Below are positions 6,468-35,847 of a stretch of 64,000 nt of DNA, one piece after another. Source of the DNA: Halobaculum saliterrae (GTDB lineage Archaea; Halobacteriota; Halobacteria; Halobacteriales; Haloferacaceae); NCBI RefSeq assembly GCF_009831625.1, contig NZ_WUUS01000013.1, positions 1-64,000 on the forward strand, given 5' to 3'. Each line of letters starts with the position of its first letter. Position 1 is the first letter of the stretch. The notes under the pieces are model-generated. The model ran no database searches and was not told the DNA's origin. It worked only from the letters and a program-made list of their open reading frames with translations. The position numbers and the translations under genes are program-made.

Positions 6468-7622
6468 CTACGTGGAGTAACCGGCGTACTCCATAAGCTG
6501 GTTGAAGATGTCCGTATCCATGACGGACCGATAGACCACGCCGGTAAGCATCCCGCCGGGATAGAACGTGCCGTTCATGACGTGGTTGACCTTGTGGCAG
6601 TGCATCAGGTAGATGCCGGGGTCTGCATCGGCAGTAAATTCGATCGTGTGTCGTTCAGCGGGGGCGACGTTCGTGACGTCCATGTCGTGGCGGGCAGCCT
6701 CCGGAATCGTTCCGCCGTCCTTTTCGACACGCTGGAAGCGGTGGTTATGGATATGCATCGGGTGCGACATGTATCCGCCGTTGACGAGGTGGATGCGAAC
6801 TGAGTCGCCCTCGTCGACGATGATCGGTGACCCTTCTTCGGGGTGCAGCGTTCGGGGTGCGCTCTTCCCGTTGACGGTGAACACGTCCGGATTGCGACTG
6901 GCCGAATTGTAGGTAAAGTCCGCCTCCCTGGCCCACTTTCGCGGAACCCGCGAATCCCAGTCTTTGACCGTCATGAAGTATTCGCGGTCCCCTGGTTCGT
7001 AGCTTTCGGGATCGACTCGGTAGATCCCGTACATGCCCATGTCGATATGCCGGTGGGTCTGGAAGTGACAATGGTAGAAATGCGTTCCAGGGATGTTTGC
7101 GGGAATCTCGTAGGTGTGTGTCTCCCCTGGCGGAACCTGAATGCCGGTCGTCGTCGGGACGCCGTCGTTCTCCCACGTCTTGCGAACTCCGTGGAAGTGA
7201 ATCGTGTGGGGACGTCGGCCATCGGTGTTGTCGAGTGTCACCTCCATCGCGTTACCCTCGGTCGTTCTGAGAATTGGGCCTGGGACGCTGGGGTCGTTGT
7301 CGTCGGCCTGGAACGCCCAGACGCGTGGGAATTCGACGGGCCCACCCATTGTATCGAGCGGGTGGACGGCGTGGCGGGCCTGCTGAGTTCGCATCGTCAC
7401 TTCGCCGCCCTGCTCGTCGACGTTGACGACTGTTGGAGGGCTGGTGTAGGAGAGATTAGGCGAGTCAGTTTGTGTCCGCGTGGGCGTATCGCTCGTTGCT
7501 GCTGGCTCGTTGGCTCCGCCCGCAGAACAGCCTGCTAACGAAGCGATACCAGTCGCGCCAGTTGCTGCGAGAAACTCACGACGGGACAGTCCGGTTCCGG
7601 GTGCGCCGAAACGTGTGGTCAT
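6468..7622 (-). CDS. Multicopper oxidase, Tat-exported
   Basis: 384 residues. The N-terminus has the Tat motif SRREFLAA and a lipobox SLAGC. Two cupredoxin domains follow. Copper-ligand blocks are HTIHFHG, HFYHCHFQTHRHIDMGM, HPMHIHNHRF and HCHKVNHVMNG. A Cys-containing HCH occurs in both domains, so both could hold a type 1 site, with the trinuclear cluster between them. The family oxidises Cu(I), Fe(II), Mn(II) or phenolics with O2 outside the cell. Near a copper ATPase, cuprous oxidase is the likeliest role. Confidence 0.9.
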   Translation of the reverse strand: MTTRFGAPGTGLSRREFLAATGATGIASLAGCSAGGANEPAATSDTPTRTQTDSPNLSYTSPPTVVNVDEQGGEVTMRTQQARHAVHPLDTMGGPVEFPRVWAFQADDNDPSVPGPILRTTEGNAMEVTLDNTDGRRPHTIHFHGVRKTWENDGVPTTTGIQVPPGETHTYEIPANIPGTHFYHCHFQTHRHIDMGMYGIYRVDPESYEPGDREYFMTVKDWDSRVPRKWAREADFTYNSASRNPDVFTVNGKSAPRTLHPEEGSPIIVDEGDSVRIHLVNGGYMSHPMHIHNHRFQRVEKDGGTIPEAARHDMDVTNVAPAERHTIEFTADADPGIYLMHCHKVNHVMNGTFYPGGMLTGVVYRSVMDTDIFNQLMEYAGYST

Positions 7623-7790
7623 AATACACTCGGCATTTTGGTTGGCCTAAACATAGGGCGACTGCGGTGTCCCAATTCACGGGACAGCGCGTGGATATGT
7701 TCGGCAAAAGGCGAATGGGGATGGCGGCTTTTCATTTATACTTGTTCGCCGTTAGGAGTCTGAAATTGAGGCGACAAAGTGGTCAGATTT

Positions 7791-21975: not shown

Positions 21976-22194
21976 ATGCCACCTGATAATATGAATACGA
22001 GAGTGGGAAACTCGCTGATGGGAATCATGCTTTTCTTGGTCGTATTGGTAATGGGGACGTATATGCTGAATCCAGTTCCAGAAGAATCGCCTCTGGCAGG
22101 TATTGTGATTTTATCCTCGGTTGTTATATTGCTTCTACTATTGTTCACACTCGCTGGAATGGTAGTGAAAGACGGCGAATTTAGTGCCCACTAA
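21976..22194 (+). CDS. Small two-TM membrane protein
   Basis: 72 residues from MPPDNMNTRVGNSLMG (MNTR at 21991 is an alternative). Two hydrophobic helices are joined by a polar LNPVPEESPLAG turn, and the protein ends VKDGEFSAH. A TTG at 21967 is also open. It stands alone, convergent with the CDF exporter. No family assigned. Confidence 0.5.
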   Translation: MPPDNMNTRVGNSLMGIMLFLVVLVMGTYMLNPVPEESPLAGIVILSSVVILLLLLFTLAGMVVKDGEFSAH

Positions 22195-22245
22195 ATGGTC
22201 GAGTAACATGTCTGTCGCACTTTGACTGGAGCCTTCCTCTCCAAA

Positions 22246-23169
22246 TTAGTGGGCGTGCTTCGTAGTACCGTTAGGATCGCCATGGCCGACGAGTTCGACG
22301 GTCGCGTGGTCGATCCCTTGATCTGCGAGATGGTCGTGAACCCGGGACCGGATAGCCCGTTGTTCCTCGAGTGTGGTCCCGGTATCCGTTAGTTGAACGG
22401 TCGCAACGATTAGCTGACTACAGACTTGCCAGACGTGTAAATCCTCGATCTGATCGACGCCGTCGAGTGTAGTCAATTCGGCTCGGAGTTCCTCCGGCGA
22501 TACAGGACTCCGTTCCAGCAGGATCGATGTACTTTCCCGGAGAACGTTTCCGGCCGACGCGAGCACCAATATTCCGATAAGCACGGCCGCAGCTGGGTCA
22601 GCCACGGGCAGATCGAAGACCGCAACGGCGACCGTCGAAACGATCACCGCGACCGAGCCACCTGCGTCACCGAGTAAATGGTAGAAGGCCCCTCGTTCAT
22701 TGAGGCTCATCTCATCTCCCTGCAACACGTACACGGAGCCGACGTTCACCAGCAGGCCACCGGTCGCGATGATCAACGTCAACTCTGGATTGATCGCCAC
22801 CGGTTCGAGAAACCGCTGGTAGGACTCCCAGAGAATGTAGCCGACCATCGGTAACAGTAATACGCCGTTCAGAAAGGCAGCAACCGGTTCCAGCCGATGT
22901 AATCCATAGGACCAATCCTCGCCGCCGTCGAATCGTTCTGCGGTGTAGCTCGCAGCGAACGCCATCGCATACGCGAGCATGTCGAACAACATGTGGATCG
23001 CGTCGCTGATGAGGGCGACCGAACCGAACAAGAGTCCGCCGGCGAGTTCGACGACGAACCCGACTAGGTTGATGACTGCAACGAACGCTAACCGCCGGGA
23101 ACTTCTACTGGTCGTGACTCGTTCACTATCCGAATGAGTCGCGTCTTCGTCGTGTGTATGAGCCATCAA
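22246..23169 (-). CDS. CDF-family cation efflux transporter (CzcD/ZitB-like)
   Basis: 307 residues. Both ends are His-rich (AHTHDEDATHSD and the final HGDPNGTTKHAH). Six TM helices carry the two zinc-site HxxxD motifs, SDAIHMLFD (H59/D63) and FYHLLGDAGG. A C-terminal cytoplasmic dimerisation domain follows. It exports Zn2+ or related ions by H+ antiport. It starts 13 bases after the stop of the upstream small membrane gene on the same strand, so they are likely one transcript. Confidence 0.92.
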   Translation of the reverse strand: MMAHTHDEDATHSDSERVTTSRSSRRLAFVAVINLVGFVVELAGGLLFGSVALISDAIHMLFDMLAYAMAFAASYTAERFDGGEDWSYGLHRLEPVAAFLNGVLLLPMVGYILWESYQRFLEPVAINPELTLIIATGGLLVNVGSVYVLQGDEMSLNERGAFYHLLGDAGGSVAVIVSTVAVAVFDLPVADPAAAVLIGILVLASAGNVLRESTSILLERSPVSPEELRAELTTLDGVDQIEDLHVWQVCSQLIVATVQLTDTGTTLEEQRAIRSRVHDHLADQGIDHATVELVGHGDPNGTTKHAH

Positions 23170-27654: not shown

Positions 27655-28944
27655 TCACCTCTTGTGCGTCCCAGCCGGCTGTGCAGGCGGCAGCGCGCGC
27701 AACGACCGCGGCGGGACGAAGAAATTACCGCGACGCTCAGTACGGATGTACTGCAGAATGCCGTTGTTGTTCCGCTGGCCGACGGCCGACTGCTCGGTGA
27801 CGTCAATGCCATTCATCGCGTCCCTCGTGTCGACGAAGTCGGTGATCCGTCGCTGGAGTGAGAGGAAATGCACGCCCGCTTGTCCTCCGTCAGTCGAATC
27901 AAAGTCACGTCGAAGCAGCAGCGGTGAGTCATCATCGTCGCGAACACGGGCGTTCTTCTGTGCGTGACCCACCACACCCATCTCGCGGGCGGTTTCATCG
28001 GTCGGTTCACAGTCGACGACTCCGCTGCTGTCCCCGAGGTTGTCTCCGGTACCTTCGATGATGTCGTTCTCGGCGTGGTATGGACAGAACATCTTCGCCT
28101 CACGCTGCCAGCGATCGTCCTGATTGTACCACTGGTTGAGGTTGAGTTGGAGCTTGGAGATGTGCTGAGTCGTGCCATCGGCGAACGGCCCTGACTGGAT
28201 CGTCACGCGATCTTCACTAGCTTGGTTCTTTCTGAACCCCGATTTGAATCCCATGAAGAGGGGGGCGTCATCCGGGACTTTGTCGGCTGGAACACCCTCA
28301 GCGTCACCTGCATTCTTCGCCGGCAACCCGTCCCCAATGAAGCCCGTCCGCCGGTCGGCGATTGAGAAAACATCCGTCAGTGCAGCGTCAGGCTGATCAA
28401 CACCGTTGAGCGTCGATTTGTTCCCTTTGAGGGCTTCTTCGGCACCTAGTACCACCTGTGCCGTGTTGCTCGCGAGATGGACGACTGCATCGGGCGTGTC
28501 GAACTCAGGATCCTCAAACGGCGCAAGTGCTTCCGGATCGGGGAGGTCGACGCCTTCGGGAAGGGATTCATCGAATCGGTCGAAGTATGCCGGGGAATAA
28601 CTCACCGTGAGCAGTATGCCATCCCCGCTTCGCTCGTAGGCGTATTCAATGCCACGGAGAGCTGTGTCAACTTGGTCGCGGTCGTCGTCGGTCGGCTGTC
28701 CGACTCGTCGGTAATTCAGATAGAGGAGCACACGATGGCTCGGAGCGACGACGTTCCCATGGTCGTCCCGTGCGAGGACCTCATTCCAAGCATGCTGCCG
28801 TTGTGGATACGACGAGAGATCATCCGGTCCCGTCGGAGCATCAATCTCTTCACGGCCTATACAGGCACTAAATGCTGTTGTCCCGCCGATTGCGACAGCC
28901 GATCTGAGGAAGTCTCTGCGAGGAATAACCCTCTCGTCAGTCAT
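27655..28944 (-). CDS. Tat-exported DyP-like peroxidase protein (DUF7405-like)
   Basis: 429 residues with a Tat signal IPRRDFLRSAVAIGG. The body has features of haloarchaeal DyP-type proteins: FMGFKSGFRKNQ, the acidic GDNLGDSSG and the block GVVGHAQKNARVRDDDD with a possible proximal His, then LLLRRDFDS and GVHFLSLQRRITDFVDTRDAMNG. I recall this group as DUF7405. Heme peroxidase activity is inferred from the family. Placement with a P19-like iron lipoprotein recalls the Efe iron-uptake arrangement, but no permease is present. Confidence 0.78.
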   Translation of the reverse strand: MTDERVIPRRDFLRSAVAIGGTTAFSACIGREEIDAPTGPDDLSSYPQRQHAWNEVLARDDHGNVVAPSHRVLLYLNYRRVGQPTDDDRDQVDTALRGIEYAYERSGDGILLTVSYSPAYFDRFDESLPEGVDLPDPEALAPFEDPEFDTPDAVVHLASNTAQVVLGAEEALKGNKSTLNGVDQPDAALTDVFSIADRRTGFIGDGLPAKNAGDAEGVPADKVPDDAPLFMGFKSGFRKNQASEDRVTIQSGPFADGTTQHISKLQLNLNQWYNQDDRWQREAKMFCPYHAENDIIEGTGDNLGDSSGVVDCEPTDETAREMGVVGHAQKNARVRDDDDSPLLLRRDFDSTDGGQAGVHFLSLQRRITDFVDTRDAMNGIDVTEQSAVGQRNNNGILQYIRTERRGNFFVPPRSLRALPPAQPAGTHKR

Positions 28945-30092: not shown

Positions 30093-30515
30093 CTACCTTA
30101 CTCTCACTGTCCCGACCATTTCAGAACTCTCGTGTGGGATACAAAAGTACCCGTACGTACCTGGTTCCTCGAACGTATGCTCGTAGTTCTCGCCCGGAGC
30201 GATGAGTCCCTCGGTGACCCGGTTCCTTACAGCACCCTCTGACTCGAAGTCACCGCTGGCGAAGTACGCCGCTTCGTCTGGAATCTCGTCTTCATACGCC
30301 GTAACCGTGTGATCGATGTCACTCTCGTTCGTCCACGTAACCGTCTCACCAGGTTCGATGGTCGCGGTCTTCGGCTCAAATCTGAGGTCGCCGGGCATCG
30401 TGACGGTCTGGGCCGACGAGGACTGCCCGTTTAGACACCCGGCAGTGCTGAGAGTCGCAAAGGTCGCAGTGCCGAGTCGCAACAGCTTTCGCCGACTGTA
30501 AAGCTCGAGTGACAT
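30093..30515 (-). CDS. Halocyanin-like blue copper lipoprotein
   Basis: 140 residues. Signal RRKLLRLGTATFATLSTAGC ends in a lipobox; one cupredoxin domain follows with His in DIDHTVTAY, then Cys, His and Met in YFCIPHESSEM. It lies 24 bases after the ZIP gene, third in the run multicopper oxidase, ZIP, halocyanin. It likely carries electrons to or from the oxidase outside the membrane. Confidence 0.88.
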   Translation of the reverse strand: MSLELYSRRKLLRLGTATFATLSTAGCLNGQSSSAQTVTMPGDLRFEPKTATIEPGETVTWTNESDIDHTVTAYEDEIPDEAAYFASGDFESEGAVRNRVTEGLIAPGENYEHTFEEPGTYGYFCIPHESSEMVGTVRVR

Positions 30516-30539: not shown

Positions 30540-31790
30540 TTAGAGCGCCACGAAGAGGTCAGTCACGTACATGATGGCGAGGCCGAGCAGAAACGCGAGT
30601 ATGTTCGTCGTACTCGCCACGCGACCGCCAGCATCACGAACCATTCGCGCGATCTCCCAGTCGACCTGCAGGATCGCGCCAACGCCGATCGCGAGGAAGA
30701 AGGCACCGAGCGTCGGCGAGTACGCGAGACTACCGATCCAGCCCCCGAGGATGACGGGTGCGCCGGCGATGACGCCGAGCGCGGCGAAGTGTCCGAGCGA
30801 CGGCCGCTCTCCGCGGGCAACCGGCGCGACGACGGCTGGACCCTCCGTCACGTTGTGGAGCATGAACCCGATCACCAGGAATGCACCGAGCGACACGCGC
30901 CCGAGTGCGAACGAGCTCCCGATAGCAAGTCCCTCCGCAAGGTTGTGCAGGCCGATCCCGACCGCGACTAGATACGCGATCCAGAGACCGCTACTCGCCC
31001 GACTATCGCCAGCGGCGACACGGCCCTCGCGCCACGCACTGATCGCCTGGACGAGCAGGAGTGCACCGAATATTCCAAAGACGACCAGGAGGTTGCCCTC
31101 GTAGGCGCCCGGAACTCGTTCGGCGAGTTCGAACGCTTCGAACCCGGCGTCGAACGCCAAGAAGCCCAGTACGCCGGCCGCAAACAAGAGCACGGCGTGT
31201 AGCCACCGATCGCTCATCGTCTTGATGTAGGGGAACCACAGCATCCCTAACGCGACCGGAATCACGCCCACGAACAGCCCGATGACTGCAAGCGTTCCGA
31301 GCAGACCGAGGCTGAATCCGGGTGACTGACTCGGGGCGAGGATCGTATTATGGAACGTCGCACCGTCAGAGAGTACGAGCGCGACTTCGAGATCCCACCC
31401 CGGATTCCAGTGGTATGGAATCACGATCTGTGCGCTCTCCATCGGGGCGAGCGTACGGTCACCACCGGCACCTTCGATCCGGAAATCCCAGTAGGCCTCA
31501 TCGACGAGAACCTGTGATATCGTCACAGATTCGGGGCCGTTATTCGTCACGTGCAGGACGACCGTTTCGTCGCTCGGAAGCGTCGTGTGCGTGACCGTCA
31601 CGTCGGGAAGCGGTTCGCCGCTCTGGACGCCAGCGAGCGGTGACGTGAACGCGAACACGCCCAGGACGATCACGAGCAACACGATCGGGAGTAAGGCGCT
31701 GACCCATCGCGGAAGCCCGAGCGGTCGTGTGAGCTCTTCGTCGGCCGTTACACCACCATCCGTCGTCGTGTCTCGTGTCTTGTCCGCCAT
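30540..31790 (-). CDS. ZIP-family metal transporter with N-terminal exported beta domain
   Basis: 416 residues. One TM helix (about 30-50) is followed by an outside beta domain of roughly 110 residues, then the eight-helix ZIP core. Metal-site motifs are HNLAEGLAIG and HNVTEGPAVVAP. The beta domain carries VTHTTLPSDETVVLHVTNNGPESV in parts, an immunoglobulin-like pattern. It imports Zn2+, Fe2+ or Mn2+. The start is 2 bases from the stop of the multicopper oxidase gene, so they are coupled; the oxidase may prepare the metal for or protect it from uptake. Confidence 0.85.
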   Translation of the reverse strand: MADKTRDTTTDGGVTADEELTRPLGLPRWVSALLPIVLLVIVLGVFAFTSPLAGVQSGEPLPDVTVTHTTLPSDETVVLHVTNNGPESVTISQVLVDEAYWDFRIEGAGGDRTLAPMESAQIVIPYHWNPGWDLEVALVLSDGATFHNTILAPSQSPGFSLGLLGTLAVIGLFVGVIPVALGMLWFPYIKTMSDRWLHAVLLFAAGVLGFLAFDAGFEAFELAERVPGAYEGNLLVVFGIFGALLLVQAISAWREGRVAAGDSRASSGLWIAYLVAVGIGLHNLAEGLAIGSSFALGRVSLGAFLVIGFMLHNVTEGPAVVAPVARGERPSLGHFAALGVIAGAPVILGGWIGSLAYSPTLGAFFLAIGVGAILQVDWEIARMVRDAGGRVASTTNILAFLLGLAIMYVTDLFVAL

Positions 31791-31791
31791 G

Positions 31792-33051
31792 TTAGACCAC
31801 CTCGAAGAAGCTCATCCAGCCCAGTTCGGCGAACTCCGACTGATGGGCGTGGAACATGTACAGGCCCGGTTCATGATCGGAGTAGTCGATCTCGATGATG
31901 CCGCGCTGCGCCTGACACTGCATGATCGTGTCGACGTTCTTGCTCGTCGGTGTCAGCGTCGTCCCGTGGTCGTAGTAGTCGAAGAACTGCGAGTGCGTAT
32001 GGAACGAGTTGATGAGGTCGAACTCCGTCGCGTTGGAGAGGTACACGCGCTGGCGTTGGTTCTTATCGATCTGGATGGGGCGTTTCGTCTCGCCCGCCGT
32101 CCAGTTGCCCTCGCCGTCAGTGTCACCAACTCCGTATCCGAACGCCCGTGTGTTCGCCGCGTAGACCTCGTTAGCGCCGTCGAAGTTGGTGTCGAACGAG
32201 TTCATCACCATCACCATCTCGTTAACGGCGTCATTCTCGGCATACTCGTGGTTCCGGCTCTTCGCCTCTTCGACGAGCTGCTCTCGGAAATCGTCGGTAA
32301 TCGGGCCCGGATAGTTGACGTACTCGCGTGGATTCTCCCTGACACGTTCGGTGTCAGGATCGACGATGATCGTGCCGTAGAGTCCGCGGTGGATGTGTTC
32401 TTTCAGCGGGAGCGAGTGACAGTGATAGAAGTGTGTGCCGGCTGGCTGTGCGATCCATTCGTAGGTGAATGACTCGCCCGTATCGAGCACACCTGGCCCG
32501 TTCTGTGGAATCCCATCCATCCGCGGATTGAGGTTCTTCAGGTGTGGATGAATCGTGTGAGCATGTCGTCCGAGGTTTTTGAAGTTGACGCGGATCAGAT
32601 CGCCCTCGACAGCGCGGATCGTCGGCCCCGGTACCTGGCCGTTGTACGCCCATGCCTGGAACTCGACGCCCGGCGCGATTGCTATCGTGGTGTCGACGGC
32701 GGTGAACTCGAACTCCCGCACGGTCCGGCCATCCTCTTCGTAGACCTGCTGGGGGACGTTATCCTGCCCGCTGTCTCCAGTATTGAATGCGGTGAGGAAC
32801 TCGTGAGGATCGAAATCCAAATCCTCGTATTCGCCCACCGCACCGAAGTTACCATGTTCATCCTCATCGTCGTGATCGGAGGCGGCACTTGCCCGAGAGC
32901 TCCCGAGTCCGACGGCTGCACTGCCTGCAACACCGAGACCGCCGAGGACCGTGCGGCGACTGACACTCGTTTCACCAGTGAGTGATTCGACCAGTCGCTC
33001 CTCGAGCCGTTTCGTGACGTCTGCTGCGCTATTGTAATCTATCGATGGCAT
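31792..33051 (-). CDS. Multicopper oxidase, CuNIR-like ligand arrangement
   Basis: 419 residues. Tat motif SRRTVLGG follows an unusually long N-terminal leader of about 30 residues. Ligand blocks are HTIHPH and HFYHCHSLPLKEHIHRGLYG in domain 1 and HTHSQFF and MFHAHQSEFAELGWM in domain 2. The type 1 Cys is present only in domain 1, and the usual axial Met after it is Leu. This matches the nitrite-reductase-type distribution of copper sites. Substrate could be Mn(II), Fe(II), Cu(I) or nitrite. It heads a three-gene run with ZIP and halocyanin. Confidence 0.88.
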   Translation of the reverse strand: MPSIDYNSAADVTKRLEERLVESLTGETSVSRRTVLGGLGVAGSAAVGLGSSRASAASDHDDEDEHGNFGAVGEYEDLDFDPHEFLTAFNTGDSGQDNVPQQVYEEDGRTVREFEFTAVDTTIAIAPGVEFQAWAYNGQVPGPTIRAVEGDLIRVNFKNLGRHAHTIHPHLKNLNPRMDGIPQNGPGVLDTGESFTYEWIAQPAGTHFYHCHSLPLKEHIHRGLYGTIIVDPDTERVRENPREYVNYPGPITDDFREQLVEEAKSRNHEYAENDAVNEMVMVMNSFDTNFDGANEVYAANTRAFGYGVGDTDGEGNWTAGETKRPIQIDKNQRQRVYLSNATEFDLINSFHTHSQFFDYYDHGTTLTPTSKNVDTIMQCQAQRGIIEIDYSDHEPGLYMFHAHQSEFAELGWMSFFEVV

Positions 33052-33105
33052 GATCTCCTCCGCTGGTCAAACCTCTGCGTGCCCATAGGAGTCCCTTGAC
33101 CAACC

Positions 33106-33150
33106 CAATGTATATATTTGACTCATCTAAACTTTGATTGAGTCTAAACT
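33106..33150 (-). promoter_or_regulatory. Promoter and candidate metal-regulator operator for MCO-ZIP-halocyanin
   Basis: On the minus strand a TATA-like AAATATATAC (about 33110-33119) lies about 60 bases before the oxidase start. Directly upstream are two direct repeats AGTTTAGA (complement of TCTAAACT at 33126-33133 and 33143-33150, 17-bp period) and an inverted repeat GACTCA/TGAGTC (33120-33125, 33139-33144). The heptamer TTAGACT recurs in the DtxR gene's own promoter, so both may be bound by it. Confidence 0.5.
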
Positions 33151-33180
33151 AATACCTTGGCAGACGAGGTTTCGACCAGG

Positions 33181-33858
33181 TTAGCTTGGATTCTCGGACA
33201 GAGGTTGAGCGGAGATAGAGCGGGCAATCTTCTCGGGAAGTGCAACTGGTTCGTCGGCACCGTCTGGATCGAGTGTCACCATGCCAAATGAGGTGACCTC
33301 AACGATTTCCACTTCAGTTCCCCGGTGAATGCCGTGATCGGACAGATATCGGAGTAGATCAGCGTCTTCGTCTGGCACCCGTTCGATTCGAACGCTGTCG
33401 CCCACGTGATGGTCGGCGAGTGTTTCACCGCATTTCGGTGCTGAAATATCCAGCTCCGCGGTGGGAATCGGATCGCCATGTGGGTCAACTGCGGGATCCC
33501 CTAGCTGCTCTGCTATCCGGTCGGCAAACTGATTGCTGATGTGGTGTTCGAGGCGATCTGCTTCGTCGTGCACCTCAGCCCAACCGTACTCGAGGTGGTC
33601 CGTCAGGTATCGTTCTAAAAGCCGGTGGTGGCGAATGATTTCGAGGGCGATAGGAATGCCGGTGTCTGTGAGTTCAACCCCCTTGTAGGGTTCATGATGT
33701 ACCAAATCACGCTCGGCCAATTTTTTCACCATACTGGTGACGGAGGGTTGTTCGACGTCCATATACTCCGCGAGAACCGAGGTTCGCACTCGGTCGTCCG
33801 TCTCTTCCTGAAGGTAATAGATCGCTTTGAGATAATCCTCCATGATCGCACTCAGCAT
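33181..33858 (-). CDS. DtxR/MntR-family metal-dependent repressor
   Basis: 225 residues from MLSAIMEDYLKAIYYLQ. N-terminal wHTH with MDVEQPSVTSMVKKLAERDLV, then the dimerisation region carrying HHRLLERYLTDHL and EVHDEADRLEHHIS (metal-binding Glu/His residues of the family), and a C-terminal FeoA/SH3-like domain VRIERVPDEDADLLRYL. With Fe2+ or Mn2+ it represses metal uptake genes. It lies just upstream of the MCO-ZIP-halocyanin run, whose promoter shares its candidate operator heptamer. Confidence 0.92.
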   Translation of the reverse strand: MLSAIMEDYLKAIYYLQEETDDRVRTSVLAEYMDVEQPSVTSMVKKLAERDLVHHEPYKGVELTDTGIPIALEIIRHHRLLERYLTDHLEYGWAEVHDEADRLEHHISNQFADRIAEQLGDPAVDPHGDPIPTAELDISAPKCGETLADHHVGDSVRIERVPDEDADLLRYLSDHGIHRGTEVEIVEVTSFGMVTLDPDGADEPVALPEKIARSISAQPLSENPS

Positions 33859-33868
33859 TGGAAAAGAA

Positions 33869-33882
33869 TTAGACTGGGCTAA
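33869..33882 (-). promoter_or_regulatory. Candidate autoregulatory operator of the DtxR gene
   Basis: TTAG-N6-CTAA lies 10 bases before the start codon and overlaps the AT-rich aatttataa element. The half-site spacing resembles DtxR/IdeR boxes. The heptamer TTAGACT is shared with the site before the oxidase gene. Between here and 34124 I see no convincing gene. Confidence 0.4.
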
Positions 33883-34124
33883 ATTTATAATTTGCCCTGT
33901 GCTTTATCGCTGGTATCGCCAACAGCGGGTGCGCTCCTGATGTCGTTGAGTACAGTAATCGTCGCGATCAACGCACAGCTCCCCCGCCGCGTGGACCTGT
34001 CCATCCCCGAGTTTCCAGGTAGGACACCAGCTACGGAGGCACAGCCCGCTGACTGAGGTTCTTTCTGGCTACCCCAAGAGGGATTCCGCTGAGGTAACTG
34101 TCGCAATCGACAGACCGATGGGTG

Positions 34125-34720: not shown

Positions 34721-34794
34721 ACTGGGGTATCACAGTAGACCCGTCACTCGGACGTAGCTTTTTGAGGTTCTTGTTCAAAAACTACCAGACGTGT

Positions 34795-35847
34795 ATGGCG
34801 GAGGCACCGGATACTGAACGGCAGGCGGTCGAATCCGAGGCTGGAGAGGTCCTCAGCGTGTCACAGCTGAACGACCGGATTGCGTCGGTCGTCGAGGACA
34901 CGTCTGCCCTCAACGGCGTCCGCTGTATCGGCGAAGTCACGGATCTCCACCAGAACAGTACCGCCCTCTATTTCACCCTGACCGACGGCGACGCCGAGCT
35001 TCCCTGTATGCTCTGGGCGAACCGCTATCAGAAGATGGACGCCGATCTCGAGGACGGGACCGAGGTCATCCTCGAAGGCGATATCGACTACTGGACAGAG
35101 GGCGGGAAAATCGACCTCAAGCCGTGGGAAGTCATCGTCGTCGGCGACGGCGACCAAGCGGCTGCGGTCGAGCGACTGCGCAGCGAGCTCGAAGAGCGTG
35201 GCTGGTTCGACGACGAGCAGAAACAGCGCCCGCCAGCGTTTCCGGAACGGGTCGGTGTTGTGACCTCACTCCGAGGGGATGCTCGCTACGACATCTAGAG
35301 CGCGATCCACGAGCAAGACCCTACCGTCGACATCCTGGTGAAGGATGCGACCGTCCAAGGGTCAGAGGCCCCGACCTCCATCGCGAACGGCATCCACCAT
35401 CTGGACCGCTCCGAGGACGTCGACGCGATTATCGTCGGCCGTGGCGGGGGGAGCGATTCGAACCTCCAGGCGTTCAACACCGAGCGGGTCGCGGAAGCTA
35501 TCTTCACCGCGAATACGTCTATTGTCACGGCGATCGGGCATACTGATGACCGGTTAATCGCCGATCAGGTCGCGGATGTGGCAACGATCACGCCGACGGC
35601 CGCCGGCGAGTATATCGTGAATTCCCGCGAGGAGTTCCTCGCAAGCAAGGTCAAGCCGCTGGCGCAGCAACTCGACGCCGCGTACGAAACCCTCCAGCAA
35701 GAGCATGAACACGAACAGGAACTCGCCGAAGCAGTCGACGAGGCCGCCGCACCCGAGGGCCTCCCACCGGTCTACTACAAGGCCGCAATCGCTGTGCTGC
35801 TGTTGCTGTTATTGACTATTACTGGGCTTTGGCTGGGGGTGATCTAA
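34795..35847 (+). pseudogene. xseA: Exonuclease VII large subunit with in-frame amber codon
   Basis: 350 codons interrupted once. The N-terminal OB fold has VLSVSQLNDRIASVVEDTS and GEVTDLHQNSTALYFTL. Codon 168 is TAG, right after GDARYDI, where relatives have Gln (CAG). The frame then resumes with AIHEQDPTVDILVKDATVQG, IVGRGGGSDSNLQAFN and AIGHTDDRLIADQVADV, all family core motifs, and ends in one membrane helix as in haloarchaeal XseA. Apart from the one codon the gene looks intact, so the change is recent, an error, or read through. Confidence 0.85.

Follow-up and report, generated by a model that had tools for sequence, protein, structure and literature searches.

A candidate operator shared by a SirR/MntR-type regulator gene and a plasmid-like multicopper oxidase-ZIP-blue copper operon of Halobaculum saliterrae

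Gene pairs encoding a multicopper oxidase (MCO) and a ZIP-type metal transporter are widespread, and the cargo of such pairs is unsettled. In a stretch of 64,000 nucleotides from Halobaculum saliterrae (contig NZ_WUUS01000013.1, positions 1 to 64,000; hereafter the window), a pair of this type is accompanied by the genes for a blue copper lipoprotein and for a DtxR-family regulator, which raises the questions of whether regulator and operon are controlled together and by which metal. The initial annotation had predicted joint metal control on the strength of a heptamer, TTAGACT, present in both promoters. Comparison with related loci strongly supports joint control of dtxR and the oxidase-ZIP-blue copper operon, by way of a palindromic candidate operator and not of the heptamer. 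The shared operator would tie the MCO-ZIP pair to a divalent-metal, probably Mn, regulon in two domains of life, and it offers a direct and cheap test of the purpose of the pair.

The genes and their plasmid-like setting

The features of the locus are collected in Table 1. The dtxR product combines an HTH domain, a metal-binding/dimerisation domain and an SH3-like FeoA domain, each scoring above the Pfam cut-off. Its best NCBIfam model is MntR, whose equivalog cut-off of 350 bits is not reached (212.7 bits), and by that cut-off the protein is a relative of MntR outside the MntR equivalog. Among the nearest solved structures are SloR and ScaR, Mn-responsive regulators of the same family. The predicted Mn-type primary site (Asp8, His77, Asp101, Glu104 and His105) is present in the window protein and in most of its relatives, and a Lys stands where MntR has Glu11; here we take MntR numbering to apply to Glu11, and DtxR numbering to Met10, which is considered below.

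The oxidase possesses two cupredoxin domains with the full set of trinuclear and type-1 ligands, whose roles we assign from known motifs; the residues H168, H170, H210, C211, H212, H351, H353, H401 and H403 are invariant in 17/17 sequences. The ZIP protein does not reach its Pfam gathering threshold (20.1 vs 35.1 bits), and its paired HNxxEG motifs recur among relatives, the first in 77 and the second in 75 of 78 sequences. Its AlphaFold model (mean pLDDT 78) fits BbZIP (5tsa; E 3.5e-7; TM 0.69 by target) and places an additional beta domain after an N-terminal helix, ahead of the ZIP core. The blue copper protein scores 44.2 bits against the 93.8-bit cut-off of the NCBIfam halocyanin-domain model, and the ZupT model likewise scores under its curated cut-off, as do those for MntR and halocyanin.

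Table 1. Coordinates of genes and promoter elements of the locus within the window.
Feature	Position	Strand	Basis or remark
dtxR (SirR/MntR-type metal-dependent regulator, 225 aa)	33181..33858	-	Pfam PF01325, PF02742 and PF04023 above cut-off
Two-domain multicopper oxidase (MCO)	31792..33051	-	PF07732 and PF07731 above cut-off; predicted Tat-type signal (reading of the N-terminus)
ZIP-type metal transporter with N-terminal extracytoplasmic beta domain	30540..31790	-	HNxxEG motifs; model resembles BbZIP
Plastocyanin/halocyanin-like blue copper lipoprotein	30093..30515	-	PF00127 reached
dtxR candidate operator TTTAGCCCAGTCTAAT	33868..33883	-	Aligned site; 9 nt before start codon
dtxR TATA-like element TTATAAA	33884..33890	-	Sequence; directly upstream of operator
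Oxidase proximal candidate operator TTTAGATGAGTCAAAT	33116..33131	-	One half imperfect; runs into TATA box
Oxidase TATA-like element TATATA	33111..33116	-	Sequence; AATTTATATATT-type element kept in 27 distinct promoters
Oxidase distal imperfect candidate operator TTTAGACTCAATCAAAG	33132..33148	-	Spacer longer by one base; lies 17 bp upstream of proximal site

The dtxR-MCO-ZIP locus is present twice in the genome, on the window's contig (C13) and on contig C12 (L147). The flanking genes of the two copies are alike, which suggests two related plasmid backbones; the regulators are 76% and the oxidases 95% identical. Close relatives (90-99%) occur in nine plasmid records, haloarchaeal throughout among the matches listed. 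The regulator and the metal-uptake operon of the window are carried on plasmid-like DNA. Among the neighbouring genes, a DUF7405/Dyp-peroxidase-like gene lies downstream of the operon (27655-28944, minus strand) and is placed in the same way in four related loci (L066, L068, L078 and L121). A frame that we read as XseA-like (34762-35847, plus strand), neighboured by dtxR and a PadR regulator gene, is broken by a stop near 35298; the frame is longer and open in the C12 copy of the locus.

A candidate operator at both promoters

When the upstream regions of relatives were lined up, a 16-bp palindrome emerged, TTTAGAC-N2-GTCTAAA, which is the element that both promoters share and the candidate operator. 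At dtxR it sits between the TATA box and the start codon, and AAATTATAAA or a variant of it precedes the site in close relatives. The initial annotation had described a TTAG-N6-CTAA motif over the TATA-like element of dtxR; the motif exists (TTAGACTGGGCTAA, 33869-33882) and is above chance (two in the window vs 0.11 expected), but it abuts the TATA element instead of covering it. The two AGTTTAGA repeats proposed for the oxidase promoter were recovered on the minus strand, at 33143-33150 and, 17 bp away, at 33126-33133; the window's clade keeps TTTAGA repeated at this 17-bp interval, and the distal site is kept as TTTAGACTCAATCTAAG in many relatives. The TGAGTC/GACTCA element noted beside the oxidase TATA is present but not conserved, as relatives show TGCGTC, TGGGTC and the like in the spacer.

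The heptamer does occur in both promoters, at 33869-33875 (plus strand) and 33141-33147 (minus strand), but it fails as a shared signal: the window holds four copies vs 2.92 expected, and 37/100 shuffles reach four. For TTTAGAYNNRTCWAAW with up to two mismatches, five rows were found in the window vs 1.21 expected, and 0/100 shuffles reach five; the five rows represent two places counted on both strands and one at 7636. The latter (7636-7651, minus strand; TTTAGGCCAACCAAAA) is an iron-type-like half-palindrome about 300 bp upstream of another MCO-like match in the window, at 6978-7316. Exact palindromes with wider spacing, TTAGAC-N11 to 13-GTCTAA, were also considered and rejected, the genome containing zero copies.

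A short frame running from ATG to TAG (33039-33086, minus strand) begins 24 nt after the oxidase TATATA and extends over the start codon of the MCO. The ATG, which is likely to be a leaderless start, is the same in all 27 distinct promoters. As a coding peptide this upstream frame is unsupported, since variation at its third-codon positions does not exceed that at the other two (mean entropy 0.34 vs 0.31 and 0.52).

The operator across haloarchaea and bacteria

The position of the site in relatives was assessed with a matrix trained solely on 29 distinct dtxR-promoter sites and then run over MCO upstream regions; one row (L095), in which dtxR follows ZIP and 7/14 positions matched, was dropped in its building. 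The aligned site is found in 41/42 dtxR upstream regions. Upstream of the MCO, scores of at least 12 occur in 60/77 loci vs 0.5% of dinucleotide shuffles. As these 77 loci contain the same genomes twice, they were collapsed to 61 distinct promoters, in which the site follows the arrangement of the genes. It stands before the MCO in 30/31 promoters with no dtxR upstream and in all 17 whose upstream dtxR is over 85 bp away. The 13 promoters whose upstream dtxR is no further than 85 bp away all lack it, the site there preceding dtxR instead. Overall, 47/48 distinct haloarchaeal MCO promoters able to carry the operator have it, and in the sole exception (L097) the upstream sequence holds just a fragment of a DtxR-like frame. 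Among the best 80 MCO relatives in named genomes, ZIP directly follows the MCO in 79/80 loci, DtxR adjoins the MCO in 26/46 archaeal and 6/34 bacterial loci, and the blue copper gene comes after ZIP in 25/46 archaeal and 0/34 bacterial loci.

The haloarchaeal matrix also recognizes bacterial loci. Scores of at least 15 occur in 19/34 bacterial MCO upstream regions vs 0/265 of the remaining windows from those loci, and scores of at least 12 in 25/34 vs 2/265; the Chloroflexota provide examples (TTTAGATACGTCTAAA, TTTAGACACATCTAAA), and alphaproteobacterial MCO loci are mostly without the site. It is conceivable, and offered here tentatively, that the genes form an ancient and horizontally spread machine for Mn acquisition in haloarchaea, Chloroflexota and other bacteria, composed of a secreted MCO coupled to a ZIP importer that bears an extracytoplasmic docking domain; its SirR/MntR-type regulator and 16-bp operator would have been retained across both domains of life.

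Within the genome of H. saliterrae itself (3.78 Mb), the palindrome with up to one mismatch occurs at seven places, six of which are accounted for by three dtxR genes, two MCO genes and one ZnuA-type ABC importer; for the seventh (C12:60217) no explanation was found. With up to two mismatches, 23 places were found vs 16 in the control, and so only near-perfect sites were relied upon. A gene for a GDT1 divalent cation antiporter comes after the third dtxR gene. A regulator resembling the product of this third dtxR was found in 30/30 genomes searched, and in the 30 best loci the site lies upstream in 25, with GDT1 nearby in 20 and ZIP in four; the tiled control for the site in these loci gave 28/878 windows, the promoter windows themselves included.

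The exact palindrome (TTAGACNNGTCTAA) was then counted in two sets of 36 genomes, with and without a close MCO, picked by the analyst from 292. The MCO-bearing set holds 35 sites in 24 genomes vs three for the reversed control, and the neighbours of 32 of them are dtxR (11), znuABC (nine), MCO (six), ArsP_2 (three, with one assignment, L158, based on sequence resemblance alone), GDT1 (two) and ZIP (one); the other three lie by DoxX/DUF7471 genes (two) or no such neighbour (one). In the other set, 14 sites spread over 13 genomes were found vs one for the control, next to dtxR (eight, seven of them then followed by GDT1), znuABC (three), ZIP (two) and none (one). Taken together, 45/49 exact sites in the 72 haloarchaeal genomes lie at dtxR/sirR, znuABC-type importers, MCO-ZIP, ZIP, GDT1 or ArsP_2. 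The presence of the candidate operator at loci of the third-dtxR type and at metal genes elsewhere identifies it, by comparison of sequences, as part of a core haloarchaeal regulon into which the plasmid MCO operon plugs.

Some copies of the palindrome lie elsewhere. In two relatives (L185 1977 and L188 2055) an exact operator is placed between divergent DoxX-like and DUF7471 genes, and at three further places (L183 2023, L204 1501 and L146 5218) near-perfect or exact copies have no recognised metal gene adjoining. For the sites G110:C4 and G040 no explanation was found.

Mechanism, metal and known systems

We consider it likely that a SirR/MntR-type repressor, probably loaded with Mn(II), controls its own gene and the mobile MCO-ZIP-blue copper uptake operon. 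A metal-loaded DtxR dimer, Mn(II) being the most likely metal, would bind TTTAGAC-N2-GTCTAAA. At dtxR the site fills the gap between TATA and start, and for this reason the bound protein would be expected to block RNA polymerase, resulting in autorepression. At the oxidase promoter the dimer would lie at the upstream edge of the TATA element, over the expected TFB contact, and the distal imperfect site, 17 bp further up, could take a second dimer. Metal shortage would release both promoters, and the cell would then make the secreted two-domain MCO together with the ZIP importer and blue copper protein. Since the plasmid repressor and the chromosomal SirR-like regulator are predicted to use the same operator, the operon would be joined to the metal-uptake regulon of the host. 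The oxidase may make metal available to ZIP or keep competing reduced metal off it. ZIP moves divalent ions, so that the oxidase is unlikely to act on the very ion that is imported; that the oxidase frees metal from organic ligands or removes competing reduced metal is a doubtful proposal.

The recurrence of the site ahead of these genes in many other archaea and in some bacteria makes it very probable that the gene set responds to a single metal, and the evidence leans towards Mn. The ligand residues of the regulator, its best model (MntR), the presence of SloR and ScaR among its nearest solved structures and the inclusion of GDT1 in the regulon all point that way, GDT1 antiporters being Mn/Ca antiporters. 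In the excerpted text of a review, SirR of Halobacterium is described as repressing its own gene in a Mn(II)-dependent way, and zurM/zurA/ycdH as raised when SirR is deleted (PMC3600143). Zinc would fit the same operator and joint control if ZnuABC and ZIP were members of a Zn-type DtxR regulon. The ABC binding protein of the regulon scores best with the zinc model AztC, and by our reading of its sequence it has His where Mn types have Glu. ZIP and ZnuABC are, moreover, classic zinc importers. The induced ABC system of Hfx. mediterranei is also called ZnuABC by its authors in the text available (PMC11218638); nevertheless, a zinc regulon appears a rather remote prospect, given that the operator is common to GDT1 antiporters and that Halobacterium SirR is reported, in the same excerpt, to depend on Mn(II) (PMC3600143).

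Copper is a still slimmer candidate. In this scheme, proposed for ammonia-oxidising archaea, the MCO would oxidise Cu(I) and ZIP would import Cu(II), the link to DtxR being secondary; the operon holds two copper proteins, and in partial accounts MCO1 and the adjacent permease of N. viennensis are modestly up under Cu limitation (log2FC 0.81 and 1.33; PMC7785015, PMC5817080), but the operator is common to divalent-metal transporters and DtxR, and profile scans of seven neighbouring proteins revealed no copper sensor family. An Fe(II)-dependent regulator with the oxidase as ferroxidase partner is of similarly slight probability. Membership of the DtxR family and the FeoA domain agree with iron, and the oxidase-permease pairing resembles Fet3/Ftr1, a ferroxidase-permease pair. 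Asp8, however, replaces DtxR Met10 in the window regulator, ZIP moves M2+ and not Fe3+, and the iron-type ABC genes of the same genome (Peripla_BP_2, FecCD; L149, L152 and L151) have a different site, TTTAGG..CCTAA, with G for A, which by its sequence is a separate DtxR-type operator class. The direction of control is another matter. Activation at the oxidase promoter by a regulator that represses its own gene would suit the tandem oxidase sites upstream of TATA, with the dtxR site downstream of it, but it seems improbable: in three relatives (L093, L096 and L100) we read the site at the MCO promoter as lying downstream of the TATA-like element, where repression is expected, and uptake genes switched on by their own metal would be odd. 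As for a chance likeness of A+T-rich promoter letters with no shared control, the chance-level count of the heptamer agrees with it, but every comparative result contradicts it and the counts of collapsed promoters refute it in practice, so that it can virtually be dismissed.

The repressor reading has counterparts in known systems, likened here by description. Halobacterium SirR, in the excerpt cited, is likewise of the metal-dependent autorepressor kind, with an ABC-type metal importer in its regulon (PMC3600143), whereas the window DtxR is encoded on a plasmid and linked there to the MCO-ZIP-blue copper genes. In ammonia-oxidising archaea, a two-domain MCO gene (MCO1) stands beside a ZIP-type permease gene, as in the window; the available portions of those papers propose copper for the pair and mention no DtxR or operator for it (PMC7785015, PMC5817080). 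The MCO-transmembrane protein-plastocyanin operons of Hfx. mediterranei have the same gene composition as the window (PMC11218638). According to the portion of that report available, a FeoA-domain DtxR, znuABC (log2FC 4.3-4.6) and two such operons (log2FC 7.1-7.7 and 2.6-3.2) rise together under denitrification, and the authors suggest copper homeostasis (PMC11218638). This co-induction is a suggestive hint, by analogy, of shared control; two relatives picked by an 80-81% DNA match (G113 and G211) gave weak MCO matches only. In Fet3/Ftr1 too, an oxidase is paired with a metal permease, but that permease is unrelated to ZIP, which carries divalent ions.

Both SirR/MntR regulation and MCO-ZIP pairing have been published, and the new element, as far as searches reach, is the cross-domain operator common to them; in the open-licence literature no paper linking the two by an operator was found. 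The 2015 comparative study of archaeal DtxR regulons by Leyn and Rodionov may already list part of the regulon. The defined operator tells the Mn-type regulon (TTTAGAC) from the iron-type (TTTAGGC) by one base per half-site. Elsewhere in the window, a perfect 16-bp palindrome with another half-site (TTTAGTGCCCACTAAA, 22180-22195) borders a CDF-like cation exporter gene (22246-23169, minus strand) on its 3' side.
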